A stretch of DNA of 64,000 nucleotides from Cellulophaga lytica DSM 7489 (GTDB lineage Bacteria > Bacteroidota > Bacteroidia > Flavobacteriales > Flavobacteriaceae): positions 2,221,501-2,285,500 of the forward strand of contig NC_015167.1 in NCBI RefSeq assembly GCF_000190595.1, written 5' to 3'. Of the stretch, positions 24,894-60,890 are shown piece by piece; position 1 is the first letter of the stretch; every line of letters begins with the position of its first letter. The position numbers and the translations under genes are program-made. The notes under the pieces are model-generated. The model was given only the letters and a program-made list of their open reading frames with translations, had not been told where the DNA came from and ran no database searches.

Positions 24894-24936
24894 CTTAAGT
24901 GTGATTTATTAATTGTTTTTGTTTTTAATAACACAG

Positions 24937-25008
24937 CAAAGATGACGCTATTAAACAAAACAAATAGACCTATTTGTAGGGAAAATTTTACCCCTGTTTT
25001 CAGGGGTA
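24937..25008 (-). promoter_or_regulatory. CCCTG-N4-CAGGG promoter module, site 1 (LipL32-family gene)
   Basis: A perfect 20-bp palindrome (24989-25008; core CCCCTG, four T, CAGGGG on the plus strand) is centred 54.5 bp from the -7 element CATCTTTG (24937-24944 on minus). A second conserved block lies at 24966-24985 (plus: AGACCTATTTGTAGGGAAAA). TAATAGC precedes the -7 box. The predicted leader of the gene starting at 24893 is about 38 nt. The same spacing is found at three other sites in the window. Confidence 0.75.
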
Positions 25009-28853: not shown

Positions 28854-29279
28854 TTAGGATACTACAAATAAAAATGAAGATACAATCATCCAAGCGCCAA
28901 GTATAAGGCCAATTAAACCTAATTTCCCTTGCTTAGGAGCAATTTTAGCTCTCATCTCTTCGGCTTTAGCCTTTGCTGCTTCATTTTTAGATAATACATA
29001 CTTGTTAATTAGTCCGTACCCTAACATAAAGCCCAAAGCAGCAGTAACAATGTTACCTACTAAATATGTTATCCATAAGATAGGCCAAGTGCTTAACCAT
29101 CCAATAGTTAAAATAGCACTAACAATTCCCCAAATCCCCCAAAAACAAAATACCATTCCTATCCAACCTTGGTAAGGTTCAATTTTTTCTAGTAGCTCTT
29201 TGGCATTTGGTTTTTTAGATAATAATAAAGACGGTACAGCTAAAATGCTTAATAATATTAAAGAAATTCCCCAGCTCAT
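28854..29279 (-). CDS. Small multi-pass membrane protein of unknown function
   Basis: 141 residues with about four transmembrane helices: residues about 3-20, 38-60 ([18 protein letters not shown]), 64-92 and 120-140. A charged cytoplasmic or periplasmic loop ([21 protein letters not shown]) separates helices 3 and 4. The first helix is followed by [19 protein letters not shown] do not recognise the family. It is a single gene with its own regulatory module (29331-29402), shared with the LipL32-family gene, a lipoprotein and the histidine kinase, so it is probably part of an envelope response. Confidence 0.65.
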
Positions 29280-29330: not shown

Positions 29331-29402
29331 CAAAGGTGCGGCCATTATAGAGTTTAAATTACCCTTAGACTAGCTAAAATGCTTACCCTGAAAACAGGGG
29401 TA
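29331..29402 (-). promoter_or_regulatory. CCCTG-N4-CAGGG promoter module, site 2 (membrane protein)
   Basis: CCCTG, AAAA, CAGGGG (29386-29400 on plus) is centred 54.5 bp from the -7 element CACCTTTG (minus; 29331-29338). The second block is at 29360-29379 (plus: TACCCTTAGACTAGCTAAAA), and TAATGGC precedes the -7 box. The gene starts at 29279, giving a leader of about 46 nt. Confidence 0.72.
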
Positions 29403-57606: not shown

Positions 57607-57999
57607 TTATGATTTAGCCAAGTCTCTACTATGGTTAACTTCAAAATAGTTTTGTACATTTTCCATAATATGAGATTCTTTTAATGTAGAGTTGGCTGTT
57701 TTGTATTCTTGGTCTATTAATTTTTTCGCAGGAAACGTTTCGCAGTGTATTTCTTCACCTTTAATATTGGTAGTTTTTACAGTTGCAGTACCTTCTAATA
57801 AAGATTTTCCTGTTACTATTATAAAAGAACGTTCTTCGTCTACAGCAGAAATACCTGTTCTTATTTTTGTGTTTTCAATAATAATGTCCGACTTAATATC
57901 TGCATTTGTTTTTGCTTGGTTTGCAGATTTTTTATCGTTACTGCAAGATAAAAATAATGATGCTGTTGCTAATACTGATACAAATAATTTAGTTTTCAT
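57607..57999 (-). CDS. Small lipoprotein of unknown function
   Basis: 130 residues. The signal MKTKLFVSVLATASLFLSC ends in a lipobox-like Cys19 followed by SNDKKS. The mature part is a short Lys/Thr-rich linker and a beta-strand domain (IIENTKIRTGISAVDEERSFIIVTGKSLLEG). I recognise no family. The gene has promoter module site 3 (58025-58097) and lies directly downstream, on the same strand, of the two-component system whose kinase gene has site 4, so it is a likely target of that system. Confidence 0.65.
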   Translation of the reverse strand: MKTKLFVSVLATASLFLSCSNDKKSANQAKTNADIKSDIIIENTKIRTGISAVDEERSFIIVTGKSLLEGTATVKTTNIKGEEIHCETFPAKKLIDQEYKTANSTLKESHIMENVQNYFEVNHSRDLAKS

Positions 58000-58024: not shown

Positions 58025-58097
58025 CAAAGATGAAGCTATTACAGGCCTAAGAATACGCCTAAATAAGTGAAAATACACACCCTGAAAACAGGGGTGT
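58025..58097 (-). promoter_or_regulatory. CCCTG-N4-CAGGG promoter module, site 3 (lipoprotein)
   Basis: CACCCTG, AAAA, CAGGGGTG (58078-58096 on plus) is centred 54.5 bp from the -7 element CATCTTTG on minus (58025-58032). The second block is 58054-58073 (plus: TACGCCTAAATAAGTGAAAA) and TAATAGC stands before the -7 box. The gene starts at 57999, about 20 nt after the predicted transcription start. Confidence 0.75.
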
Positions 58098-58104
58098 AGA
58101 TTTG

Positions 58105-58752
58105 TTAATCGTCTAGAAGGCCTATTTTTATTGCGTGTTTGGTTAGTCCGGCTAAGTTTTTTACGTTTAGCTTAGAAATTAAATTTTTACGGTAGCTCTC
58201 TATAGTGTGTTTGCTTAAAAATAACTCGTCTGCAATTTCTTGTGTGGTATATTCTTCTGCAATTAGTTTCAAAACTTCTTTTTCCCTATTGGTTAAAGAA
58301 ATTTCTTTTTCCTTTTTACTAGCAAACATAGCATCTGTGTATGCTTTTTTAATTTCTGAAGAGAAATATTTTTCACCCTTTACAATGCTTCTAATAGCTT
58401 CTAGTAATTCTTCTTTTTCAGCATTTTTAGGTACATATCCATCTACATTATTTCTTATCAACGTGTCAATCATAGTTCCATCAATATGCATACTTACAAC
58501 TAAAGTTTTTAGGCTAGTAAAACGTTCCTTAACTATGTTGTTAAGTTCAATGCCATCAACTTCTGGCATAGTTAAGTCTGTAATTAGTAAATGTATGTCT
58601 GCTGCGCCATTAATGTCTAAGTACTTTACAACTTGTGCTCCGTTTTTGGCTGTTAAAATTACATTAAACTCAGGTGCATCATTTAAAATACTCATTAGAC
58701 CATCAATAAACATTTTGTGGTCATCTGCAATAATAAGGTTATATGTTGTCAT
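58105..58752 (-). CDS. LuxR/NarL-type response regulator
   Basis: 215 residues. The receiver is canonical: Asp10-Asp11, phosphoacceptor Asp59 (LLITDLTMPEVDG), Ser87 and Lys109. The C-terminal LuxR helix-turn-helix (LTNREKEVLKLIAEEYTTQEIADELF region, about 153-205) binds DNA. Its start lies inside the 3' end of the histidine kinase gene (14-bp overlap), so the two are co-translated partners. It is the best candidate to bind the CCCTG-N4-CAGGG palindromes, because one lies before its operon and another directly after it. Confidence 0.92.
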   Translation of the reverse strand: MTTYNLIIADDHKMFIDGLMSILNDAPEFNVILTAKNGAQVVKYLDINGAADIHLLITDLTMPEVDGIELNNIVKERFTSLKTLVVSMHIDGTMIDTLIRNNVDGYVPKNAEKEELLEAIRSIVKGEKYFSSEIKKAYTDAMFASKKEKEISLTNREKEVLKLIAEEYTTQEIADELFLSKHTIESYRKNLISKLNVKNLAGLTKHAIKIGLLDD

Positions 58753-60730
58753 TGGTTGTGTTTTTAATTGGTATTTCTATAGATACTACAGTACCTCTGT
58801 TAATTGCTGAGTCTACGTGTAGCGTACCGTTTAGTTTTTCTATTCTGCTTTTAATGTTTTTAAATCCAATACCTTCTCCGTTTTTACTAGTGTCAAAACC
58901 TTTTCCGTTATCTTCAAAAAGTAAAGTAATGCTATCTTCAAAATAATTTAAATGAATATCAGTAGTAGATGCTTTTGCATGTTTTAAGGTGTTGGTCATT
59001 AACTCTTGGATAATTTTAAACAACTCCATTTTAACAATTTCATTAAGAGTGTTTATTTTATCCTCTGGATGAGGGTGAAATTCTACATTTAATTTGCCAG
59101 TGCTTGTGATAGATTTAGTATATTCTTTTATAAGCTGCGTAAAATCATCTTGTCTAAACTTTTTAGGAATTAGGGTGTGAGAAATGTCTCTAACTAATTG
59201 ATAGGTTTCATCTAACTGACCTGAAATTGTGTTTAGTGTTTGGGTTTTTTCTTTTACACTTGCTAATTGCAATTTTATGCCGGCTAAGTTGCCACCAATA
59301 CTGTCATGTAATTCTTGAGCAATACGTTTGCGCTCTTCATCCTGACCTTCAATAGCGGCCTTTATTAATTTTAATTCTTGTTCTTGTTTAAGTGCGGCTA
59401 CTTTTTGACTATTAATTTCTTCATTTTTTTTAGCCAGCTCGCTCTGTGCTTGCATTTTTTGGTAGTAAGTATATAGCAAAGCAATGACAGGGATAAGAAT
59501 CACTAAAAATCCAATTAAAAAAGCAGCTTTAATGGTTTTTTGCCTATCTAATTCGGCTTGCTGTTTAATTTGATCTTCTTTTAAATCAGATATAGCTTGT
59601 TCTTTTTTTATAGTTTCATACTGTATTTCAAGTTCCTTTATTATTTCTCTTTGTTGTTTGTCTTTTATTTCATTTAAAACTCCAAAGAGTTGTGTCATTG
59701 TGGCGTATGCATTTTTGTAATCTTCTTGTTTGTAAAAACTTCTTGCTTGTATGATGAGTGATTCTCTTTGAAACTGTAAATTTTCATGGTCTACAGCATT
59801 GATGTATGCCATAGTTAGACCTACATTTGCAATGTTGTATTCTTCTAATTTATAATATAACTTGGCAACAAGTAGCGCTCCTTCATAATATATGGCGTTA
59901 AAATTTTTAGCTTTGGCTTGGTTGCTTATTTGCGCATACATTTGTATTGCTTTGTTATATTCTTTGTTGACTTCTAAAAGCTTGGCATTGTGTAGTTTAA
60001 TTTCTAATTCGGCTTCTAAGTCTTTAAATTGCTTTGCTAACTCTAAAGATGAGTTGTAATAATTTTTAGCTATGTCATATTCTTTTTTTTGTGAATATGC
60101 GTTACCTAATTGCAGTAGTGCTCTATAGGTAATTGTTGGTTGTTGTTTGCCATAAATACTTATACTCTCTTTAAGTAAATTAATGGCTTTGTCAATGCTG
60201 TTTTGGGCTATGTAATTTTTTGCAAGACTTACCTTGTGTAAATACATATATTCAGAGTCGTTAATTGCTTCAGCTTCTTGTAGTCCCTTTATATTCCACT
60301 CAATAGATTTATCTACAAGTCCGTTTAAAGAACTGCCCAAAGACATTAAATAATATGCCTTTGCATATAAATATTTCTTTTCTTTTTCGGGTTTATCCCA
60401 GTTGCCTAATTCCTGTACATATAAGTTACCATAATGTAAAACAGAGTCTGTGTTGGCTTTTTTTGCATGATGATCTATAAGTTGATCAAAAATAGAGAAT
60501 CTTTGAGCCCCAAAGTCAGCATCTTTTAAGGCATCATATAATGGTTGTAAAGTCTTATCTTTTTGAATTTTAGACCATGAAAAAGAGAAAAAAGACGGGT
60601 CCTCTTCTTTTTTGATGCTATCTGCTTCTTGAGCATTTGCAAACTGAAAAACTCCAATTAAAAGAAAAACTAAAATGTGTTTAAATTTAATGTGCTGTTG
60701 TAGGTGGTATGTAGATTTGGTGGTAGTCAA
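58739..60730 (-). CDS. TPR sensor histidine kinase (HisKA_3 type)
   Basis: 663 residues with a TTG start. A signal-like segment (about 17-34) leads to a periplasmic region of TPR-like helical repeats (about 115-355, e.g. YRALLQLGNAYSQKKEYDIAKNYY), a coiled coil, one transmembrane helix (402-423), then HisKA_3 with phosphoacceptor His475 (AQELHDSIGG) and an HATPase_c domain (N-box near 575, DNGKGFD). This TPR type is frequent in flavobacteria with unknown signals. It pairs with the overlapping response regulator gene. Promoter module site 4 is 91-160 bp upstream, suggesting autoregulation. Confidence 0.9.
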   Translation of the reverse strand: MTTTKSTYHLQQHIKFKHILVFLLIGVFQFANAQEADSIKKEEDPSFFSFSWSKIQKDKTLQPLYDALKDADFGAQRFSIFDQLIDHHAKKANTDSVLHYGNLYVQELGNWDKPEKEKKYLYAKAYYLMSLGSSLNGLVDKSIEWNIKGLQEAEAINDSEYMYLHKVSLAKNYIAQNSIDKAINLLKESISIYGKQQPTITYRALLQLGNAYSQKKEYDIAKNYYNSSLELAKQFKDLEAELEIKLHNAKLLEVNKEYNKAIQMYAQISNQAKAKNFNAIYYEGALLVAKLYYKLEEYNIANVGLTMAYINAVDHENLQFQRESLIIQARSFYKQEDYKNAYATMTQLFGVLNEIKDKQQREIIKELEIQYETIKKEQAISDLKEDQIKQQAELDRQKTIKAAFLIGFLVILIPVIALLYTYYQKMQAQSELAKKNEEINSQKVAALKQEQELKLIKAAIEGQDEERKRIAQELHDSIGGNLAGIKLQLASVKEKTQTLNTISGQLDETYQLVRDISHTLIPKKFRQDDFTQLIKEYTKSITSTGKLNVEFHPHPEDKINTLNEIVKMELFKIIQELMTNTLKHAKASTTDIHLNYFEDSITLLFEDNGKGFDTSKNGEGIGFKNIKSRIEKLNGTLHVDSAINRGTVVSIEIPIKNTTNDNI

Positions 60731-60820: not shown

Positions 60821-60890
60821 CAAAGTTTGTGATAATTGTTTGTTTAAAAAACCCGTAAGTTAGCGAAACGCATATCCCTGAAAACAGTGT
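60821..60890 (-). promoter_or_regulatory. CCCTG-N4-CAGGG promoter module, site 4 (histidine kinase operon)
   Basis: CCCTG, AAAA, CAGTG (60876-60889 on plus) has one mismatch in the right arm. Its centre is 54.5 bp from the -7-like element AAACTTTG on minus (60821-60828). The second block is at 60850-60869 (plus: AACCCGTAAGTTAGCGAAAC). The -7 element and the palindrome are the weakest of the four, as might be expected of a regulator promoter. The leader would be about 85 nt. Confidence 0.65.

Follow-up and report, generated by a model that had tools for sequence, protein, structure and literature searches.

Four sites in the window (the whole stretch of 64,000 nucleotides analysed here) carry the same promoter module, in which a palindrome, CCCTG-N4-CAGGG, and a weaker palindromic block stand upstream of a -7 box. 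Judged from sequence, the module very probably serves as operator and promoter for a small regulon controlled by the TPR histidine kinase and the NarL-type response regulator whose genes lie at 58105-60730. The mechanism that we infer covers the binder and its signal, binding by two dimers, activation over repression, and the start sites. The phosphorylated regulator would bind the strong palindrome as a dimer, centred at about -66.5, and a second dimer would occupy the weaker 5-4-5 copy 24 bp downstream, centred at about -42.5. From there, the second dimer would help RNA polymerase, carrying the primary sigma factor, at a -7 box that seldom begins with the consensus T. The predicted targets are M141, Lp130, the LipL32-family protein, and, in some species, the kinase-regulator operon itself; in this genome, an operon encoding an NlpE-like lipoprotein and a DUF1287 protein is probably also a target. 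These target genes point to a role in cell-envelope upkeep or stress.

The sequence of the module, its spacing, its conservation, its co-occurrence with the kinase, and its linkage to the target genes were all read by computation. The 3.77 Mb genome, scanned as one contig of 3,765,936 bases, contains three exact copies of the palindrome, all of them in the window and within 33 kb (Table 1). Approximately 0.21 exact copies per genome are expected from base composition, and the reversed pattern occurs 0 times in the same genome. The preliminary description had counted four copies of CCCTG-N4-CAGGG; three are exact, and the fourth, CCCTGAAAACAGTG, has one mismatch. When up to two mismatches were allowed, 8 palindromes were found in the window versus 4.9 expected, which is not unusual, and the case therefore rests on exactness and spacing.

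Table 1 Features of the proposed regulon in the window.
Feature	Position	Strand	Evidence
LipL32-family secreted protein, 227 aa	24210..24893	-	Pfam PF12103, 292.3 bits (cut-off 25)
-7 box CATCTTTG, LipL32 promoter	24937..24944	-	
Proximal degenerate palindrome, LipL32 promoter	24968..24981	-	dyad scan
Distal palindrome, LipL32 promoter	24992..25005	-	exact; model R1 E=9.0e-14
M141, 141-aa membrane protein, four hydrophobic segments	28854..29279	-	
-7 box CACCTTTG, M141 promoter	29331..29338	-	
Proximal degenerate palindrome, M141 promoter	29362..29375	-	dyad scan
Distal palindrome, M141 promoter	29386..29399	-	exact; R1 E=4.9e-17
Lp130, 130-aa predicted lipoprotein	57607..57999	-	no family found
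-7 box CATCTTTG, Lp130 promoter	58025..58032	-	
Proximal degenerate palindrome, Lp130 promoter	58056..58069	-	dyad scan
Distal palindrome, Lp130 promoter	58080..58093	-	exact; R1 E=9.8e-18
NarL-type response regulator, 215 aa, proposed module binder	58105..58752	-	Response_reg, GerE
TPR histidine kinase, 663 aa	58739..60730	-	HisKA_3, HATPase_c
-7 box AAACTTTG, kinase operon promoter	60821..60828	-	
Proximal degenerate palindrome, kinase operon promoter	60852..60865	-	dyad scan
Distal palindrome, kinase operon promoter	60876..60889	-	one mismatch; R1 E=6.3e-12

Read along the minus strand, all four sites show the same order, namely the palindrome, a 10-bp stretch with TTT or TTTT at its end, the second block of 14 bp, a further 31 bp that close with nAnnTTTG, and the gene, which starts 21-86 bp past the predicted transcription start. 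The last G of the -7 box lies 55 bp past the end of the palindrome at each of them. Measured from the palindrome centre, the distance is 61.5 bp to this G and, exactly as first reported, 54.5 bp to the upstream edge of the -7 box (4/4 sites). For a wider view of 73 modules, 38 of the 63 listed module matches were taken (36 from other genera and 2 from this genome), with partial, reverse-strand, and weaker ones omitted. The spacing, earlier called rigid, is 55 bases from palindrome end to last G inclusive in 62 of the 73, 56 in nine, and 54 in two, and the changes between 54 and 56 could not be assigned consistently to one side of the second block. The -7 boxes of the window all read AnnTTTG, none with a leading T. 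Across the 73 modules, C is the commonest first base (48), followed by G (13), T (10), and A (2); the rarity of the consensus T fits promoters needing an activator. The TAATAGC reported before the -7 box proved not to be general, as none of the ten preceding columns exceeds 0.23 bit over 53 modules.

The TAnnTTTG element of F. psychrophilum is placed at -12 to -5 (PMC9723704). By analogy, carrying this numbering over would set the palindrome at -73 to -60 and the second block at -49 to -36; the two centres given above rest on numbering the last G as -5. A promoter architecture under selection, with a regulator bound near -65 and -45, had been proposed from the window, and this proposal is strongly supported, since the geometry and key bases recur in other genera while the intervening DNA is nearly devoid of information. 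The protein would act as an activator, and transcription is predicted to start near 24932, 29326, 58020, and 60816.

The second block had been written as ACCC-N-TA-N4-TAG-N2-AAAA. Taken from the four sites, this pattern has N3, and the block, which covers a 14-mer, is better described as a 5-4-5 dyad centred 24 bp downstream of the palindrome centre. The 14-mers of the window on the coding strand are CCCTACAAATAGGT, AGCTAGTCTAAGGG, CACTTATTTAGGCG, and CGCTAACTTACGGG. Dyad and information profiles were computed for 53 non-redundant modules (< 75% identity) out of the 73, drawn from this and other genera. A scan of these for 5-4-5 symmetry peaked at the palindrome (0.83), with the second peak at the second block (0.52) and a median of 0.29. 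The majority bases of the block are CACTA-N4-AAGGG, compared with CCCTG-N4-CAGGG for the palindrome, and at one locus (L029) the block is a perfect dyad, CACTT-TTTT-AAGTG. Its symmetry lies in the column consensus rather than in compensating changes, because the observed value of 0.52 compares with 0.49 expected from the columns alone. We read the second block as a weaker second site for what would be the same dimer. The DNA helix makes one turn in approximately 10.5 bp; 24 bp correspond to approximately 2.3 helical turns, so the two predicted dimers would be somewhat rotated against each other around the helix.

The genes following the four modules are those named in the preliminary description, which did not mention the response-regulator gene that follows the kinase gene. 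The domains of this regulator exceed the Pfam cut-offs (Response_reg, 64.6 bits versus 30.2; GerE, 66.8 bits versus 23.5), and close relatives of the kinase locus are found in C. omnivescoria (90%) and C. fucicola (82%), both Cellulophaga of the Flavobacteriaceae. The LipL32-family protein matches LipL32 chains in the PDB with E about 1e-29 and does not reach the narrower NCBIfam equivalog model for LipL32 (108.7 versus a cut-off of 300). A LipL32 orthologue is described as helping a marine bacterium to colonise surfaces (PMC4080168). For M141, family searches found no family and a PDB search gave no match. This genome also holds a second M141 copy (3140544-3140963, 62% identity), and second copies exist in four other genomes of the genus. 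The module is absent from the promoters of all five second-copy loci in the genus, and the second gene of this genome was rejected as a further target, with no module nearby.

Two models were used to search for modules. The training set of R1 comprised 35 genus sites, the four window sites among them, so that the E-values of this model at the window sites are inflated. For R2, 20 M141 promoters from other genera were used, with training stretches cut at R1 matches, and this model avoids circularity for three of the four targets, whose genes were absent from the training set. The top four R2 matches in the genome are the four window sites (E 2.4e-14, 9.8e-14, 5.0e-9, and 1.4e-7). The fifth is a site at 3496004 (2.2e-6), and the next match has E 0.0035. 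Degraded palindromes that keep the module geometry were seen at genome positions 3496004 and 3494792 (L187 5505-5561 and 4293-4347). The former precedes genes for a 163-aa lipoprotein, whose NlpE_C match falls short of the threshold (20.5 bits versus a cut-off of 22), and a DUF1287 protein (232.8 bits). The latter, 1.2 kb away (R1 E=0.033, R2 E=0.26), precedes the gene for a 100-aa membrane-like protein.

The scan of the genome and its relatives that the preliminary description had proposed had a favourable outcome, beginning with the genus. Among 18 genus genomes, 15 encode the kinase. The 18 contain 52 exact palindromes. For 36 of these, an A..TTTG on one strand ends at a distance of 54-56 bases (55 in 27 cases, 56 in seven, and 54 in two); five others have it at 31, and other distances occur once each. 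The combined geometry of palindrome and -7 box is present in 15/15 genomes with the kinase and 0/3 without it. One of the latter (G015) keeps LipL32 and M141-type genes, with the module at neither. Furthermore, 35 of the 36 genus modules precede one of the same four genes. The exception (L007 position 1501, minus strand, in genome G004) shows the module geometry before the gene for a 223-aa protein, an extra candidate target.

When promoters were picked by orthology in the kinase genomes, R1 matched at M141 in 15/15 and at LipL32 in 12/12; ten of these 27 promoters were outside the R1 training set, and all ten match with 24.9-52.9 bits. A module precedes Lp130 in 15/15 genomes, 14 times on the kinase locus and once elsewhere in the genome (G009, L054). 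Two of the 14 run off the end of the kinase locus and were checked in L039 and L063. The kinase operon itself is preceded by the module in six clear and two weak cases among the 15. In five genus genomes (L005, L013, L036, L053, and L056, position 1501), the end of an exact palindrome and the last G of a -7 box are 31 bases apart, and the gene that follows encodes a Zn-ribbon-like protein of about 227 aa with a CPGC motif. This spacing is exactly 24 less than 55, that is, the position of the proximal site; these sites are a lead only, because their flanks are also terminator-like. In two genus genomes (L045 and L062, position 1501), an exact palindrome a short way upstream of the gene for a 484-aa predicted lipoprotein lacks the standard -7 spacing.

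We then compared occurrence over one set of 299 genomes of the family (module E<=0.001, kinase E<=1e-70, M141 E<=1e-15). The filters of this module scan were stricter, and a missing module means one that was not found. The module was found in 32 genomes, the kinase in 26, and M141 in 30. The module is present in 22 of the 26 kinase genomes and in 10 of the 273 others (Fisher p=7e-22, a test that overstates independence because the genomes share descent). The 22 genomes with both fall in 20 genera, and all of them have M141. In 12 of the 22, no more than 600 bp separate M141 from the kinase or regulator gene; in two others the distance is about 5 kb. LipL32 is on the same stretch in four loci (L152, L153, L155, and L159; the module match in L155 is partial), and a SIMPL-domain neighbour was seen at L154, the one neighbour tested; like the target genes, it would fit an envelope role.

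Of 23 regulators encoded at loci with the module, 17 carry the helix-turn-helix (HTH) segment SKHTIESYRKNLI unchanged, and the other six differ from it at one or two positions, whereas all four regulators from module-less kinase loci with response-regulator identity below 58% differ at three positions or more. Three kinase genomes without the module (G028, G144, and G155) have regulator identities of 51, 45, and 58%, respectively, and at least three differences in the HTH segment; a second kinase match is present in G155. Another genome (G307) speaks against the proposed binder, as its regulator has the same HTH segment and the module was not found. Its system looks to be decaying, as the kinase reads as two ORFs (L172 1232-3807), the M141 match stops at residue 88, and the module is missing. 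G194 and G275, two genomes with the module and no kinase match, each encode a regulator orthologue (60 and 56% identity, respectively) on the contig of the module. The module matches of seven other genomes without the kinase are weak (E 1.8e-5 to 8.6e-4).

These distributions also bear on whether a different transcription factor binds the palindrome and merely shares its phylogenetic distribution with the kinase and regulator. The genomes are related by shared descent, and one of them (G243) has a strong module before M141 (L169 2899-2970) without a regulator orthologue (best 31%), both of which would suit such a factor. We nevertheless consider it unlikely, given the coupled presence and absence within the genus, the module before the kinase operon itself in six of 15 genus genomes, the targets adjoining the kinase and regulator genes in 12 of 22 genomes, and the regulator orthologues on the module's contig in G194 and G275. 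If the NarL-type regulator is the binder, it might instead repress: the regulatory sign is not readable from sequence, and the proximal site nears the -33 region. Repression seems quite improbable to us, as both sites keep a constant distance upstream of the -7 box, a layout like that of activated promoters, and a first base other than the consensus T, seen in all but 10 of the 73 modules, is expected of promoters needing help.

Readings that involve no regulator fare worse. A reading of the palindromes as RNA hairpins that belong to upstream genes, such as intrinsic terminators, finds some support in the A-tract/T-tract, terminator-like flanks of other genus palindromes (L005, L014, L041, and L051) and in the position of the 58080 site after the regulator gene. 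Terminators would not be expected to keep a constant distance from a -7 box, and no transcript ends at the LipL32 and M141 sites of the window because the gene on the other side is divergent; on both grounds we rejected this reading of the four sites as very unlikely. There is next to no chance that the sites are copies of one duplicated segment or alike by accident. An AAAA/TTTT palindrome spacer is common to three of the four, but the DNA between the elements is almost free of information over the 53 modules, and the expected number of exact palindromes and the cross-genus R2 E-values speak against accident. Local duplication, already discounted in the preliminary description, was rejected on the same lack of information between elements and is refuted by conservation across genera.

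An operator for the NarL-type regulator would give this protein a testable binding site together with predicted start sites, tie the uncharacterised M141 and the LipL32-family protein to one signalling pathway, and suggest how a regulator may sit relative to the unusual TAnnTTTG promoter of the phylum. A literature search, by titles and the starts of abstracts among the matches listed and with few subscription journals, did not find the motif or the regulon, which we regard as a new regulon of an already known kind. Its pairing of a HisKA_3 kinase with a NarL-type regulator is like that of VraSR/LiaSR, the cell-envelope stress systems of Firmicutes. In the S. aureus vraSR promoter, the distal site reported at -50 to -75 is conserved; the proximal one, at -46 to -26, is less so and needs phosphorylated VraR (PMC6612188). 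The same arrangement of a conserved distal and a degenerate proximal site is seen here, with centres at about -66.5 and -42.5 compared with about -62 and -36 there. Further, among solved chains the one closest to the regulator bears the label VraR (E 5.6e-25). On the other hand, the kinase here has TPR repeats, and motif, targets, and phylum differ. The best NCBIfam matches of the kinase are MctS, UhpB, and LiaS, all far below their cut-offs (LiaS, 96.2 bits versus 450), and we therefore describe the system as working like VraSR from its layout without filing it as a member. Tentatively, it may be an envelope-stress counterpart of VraSR/LiaSR, built from a TPR kinase, a NarL-type regulator, the membrane protein M141 as near-constant partner and possible feedback element, and a two-dimer operator fixed to an atypical Bacteroidota promoter.

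FimS/FimR is likewise a two-component system of Bacteroidota, and FimR is reported to bind the mfa1 promoter of Porphyromonas gingivalis directly and to activate it (PMC1974823). The kinase described here scores only 24.0 bits against the FimS cut-off of 600, and the FimS/FimR targets, as described there, are fimbrial. The -7 box of the module fits nAnnTTTG and may be a form of the TAnnTTTG box reported for the primary sigma factor of Flavobacteriaceae; the module differs from ordinary promoters of that type in the first base of the box, mostly C (48/73), and in the two dyads upstream.
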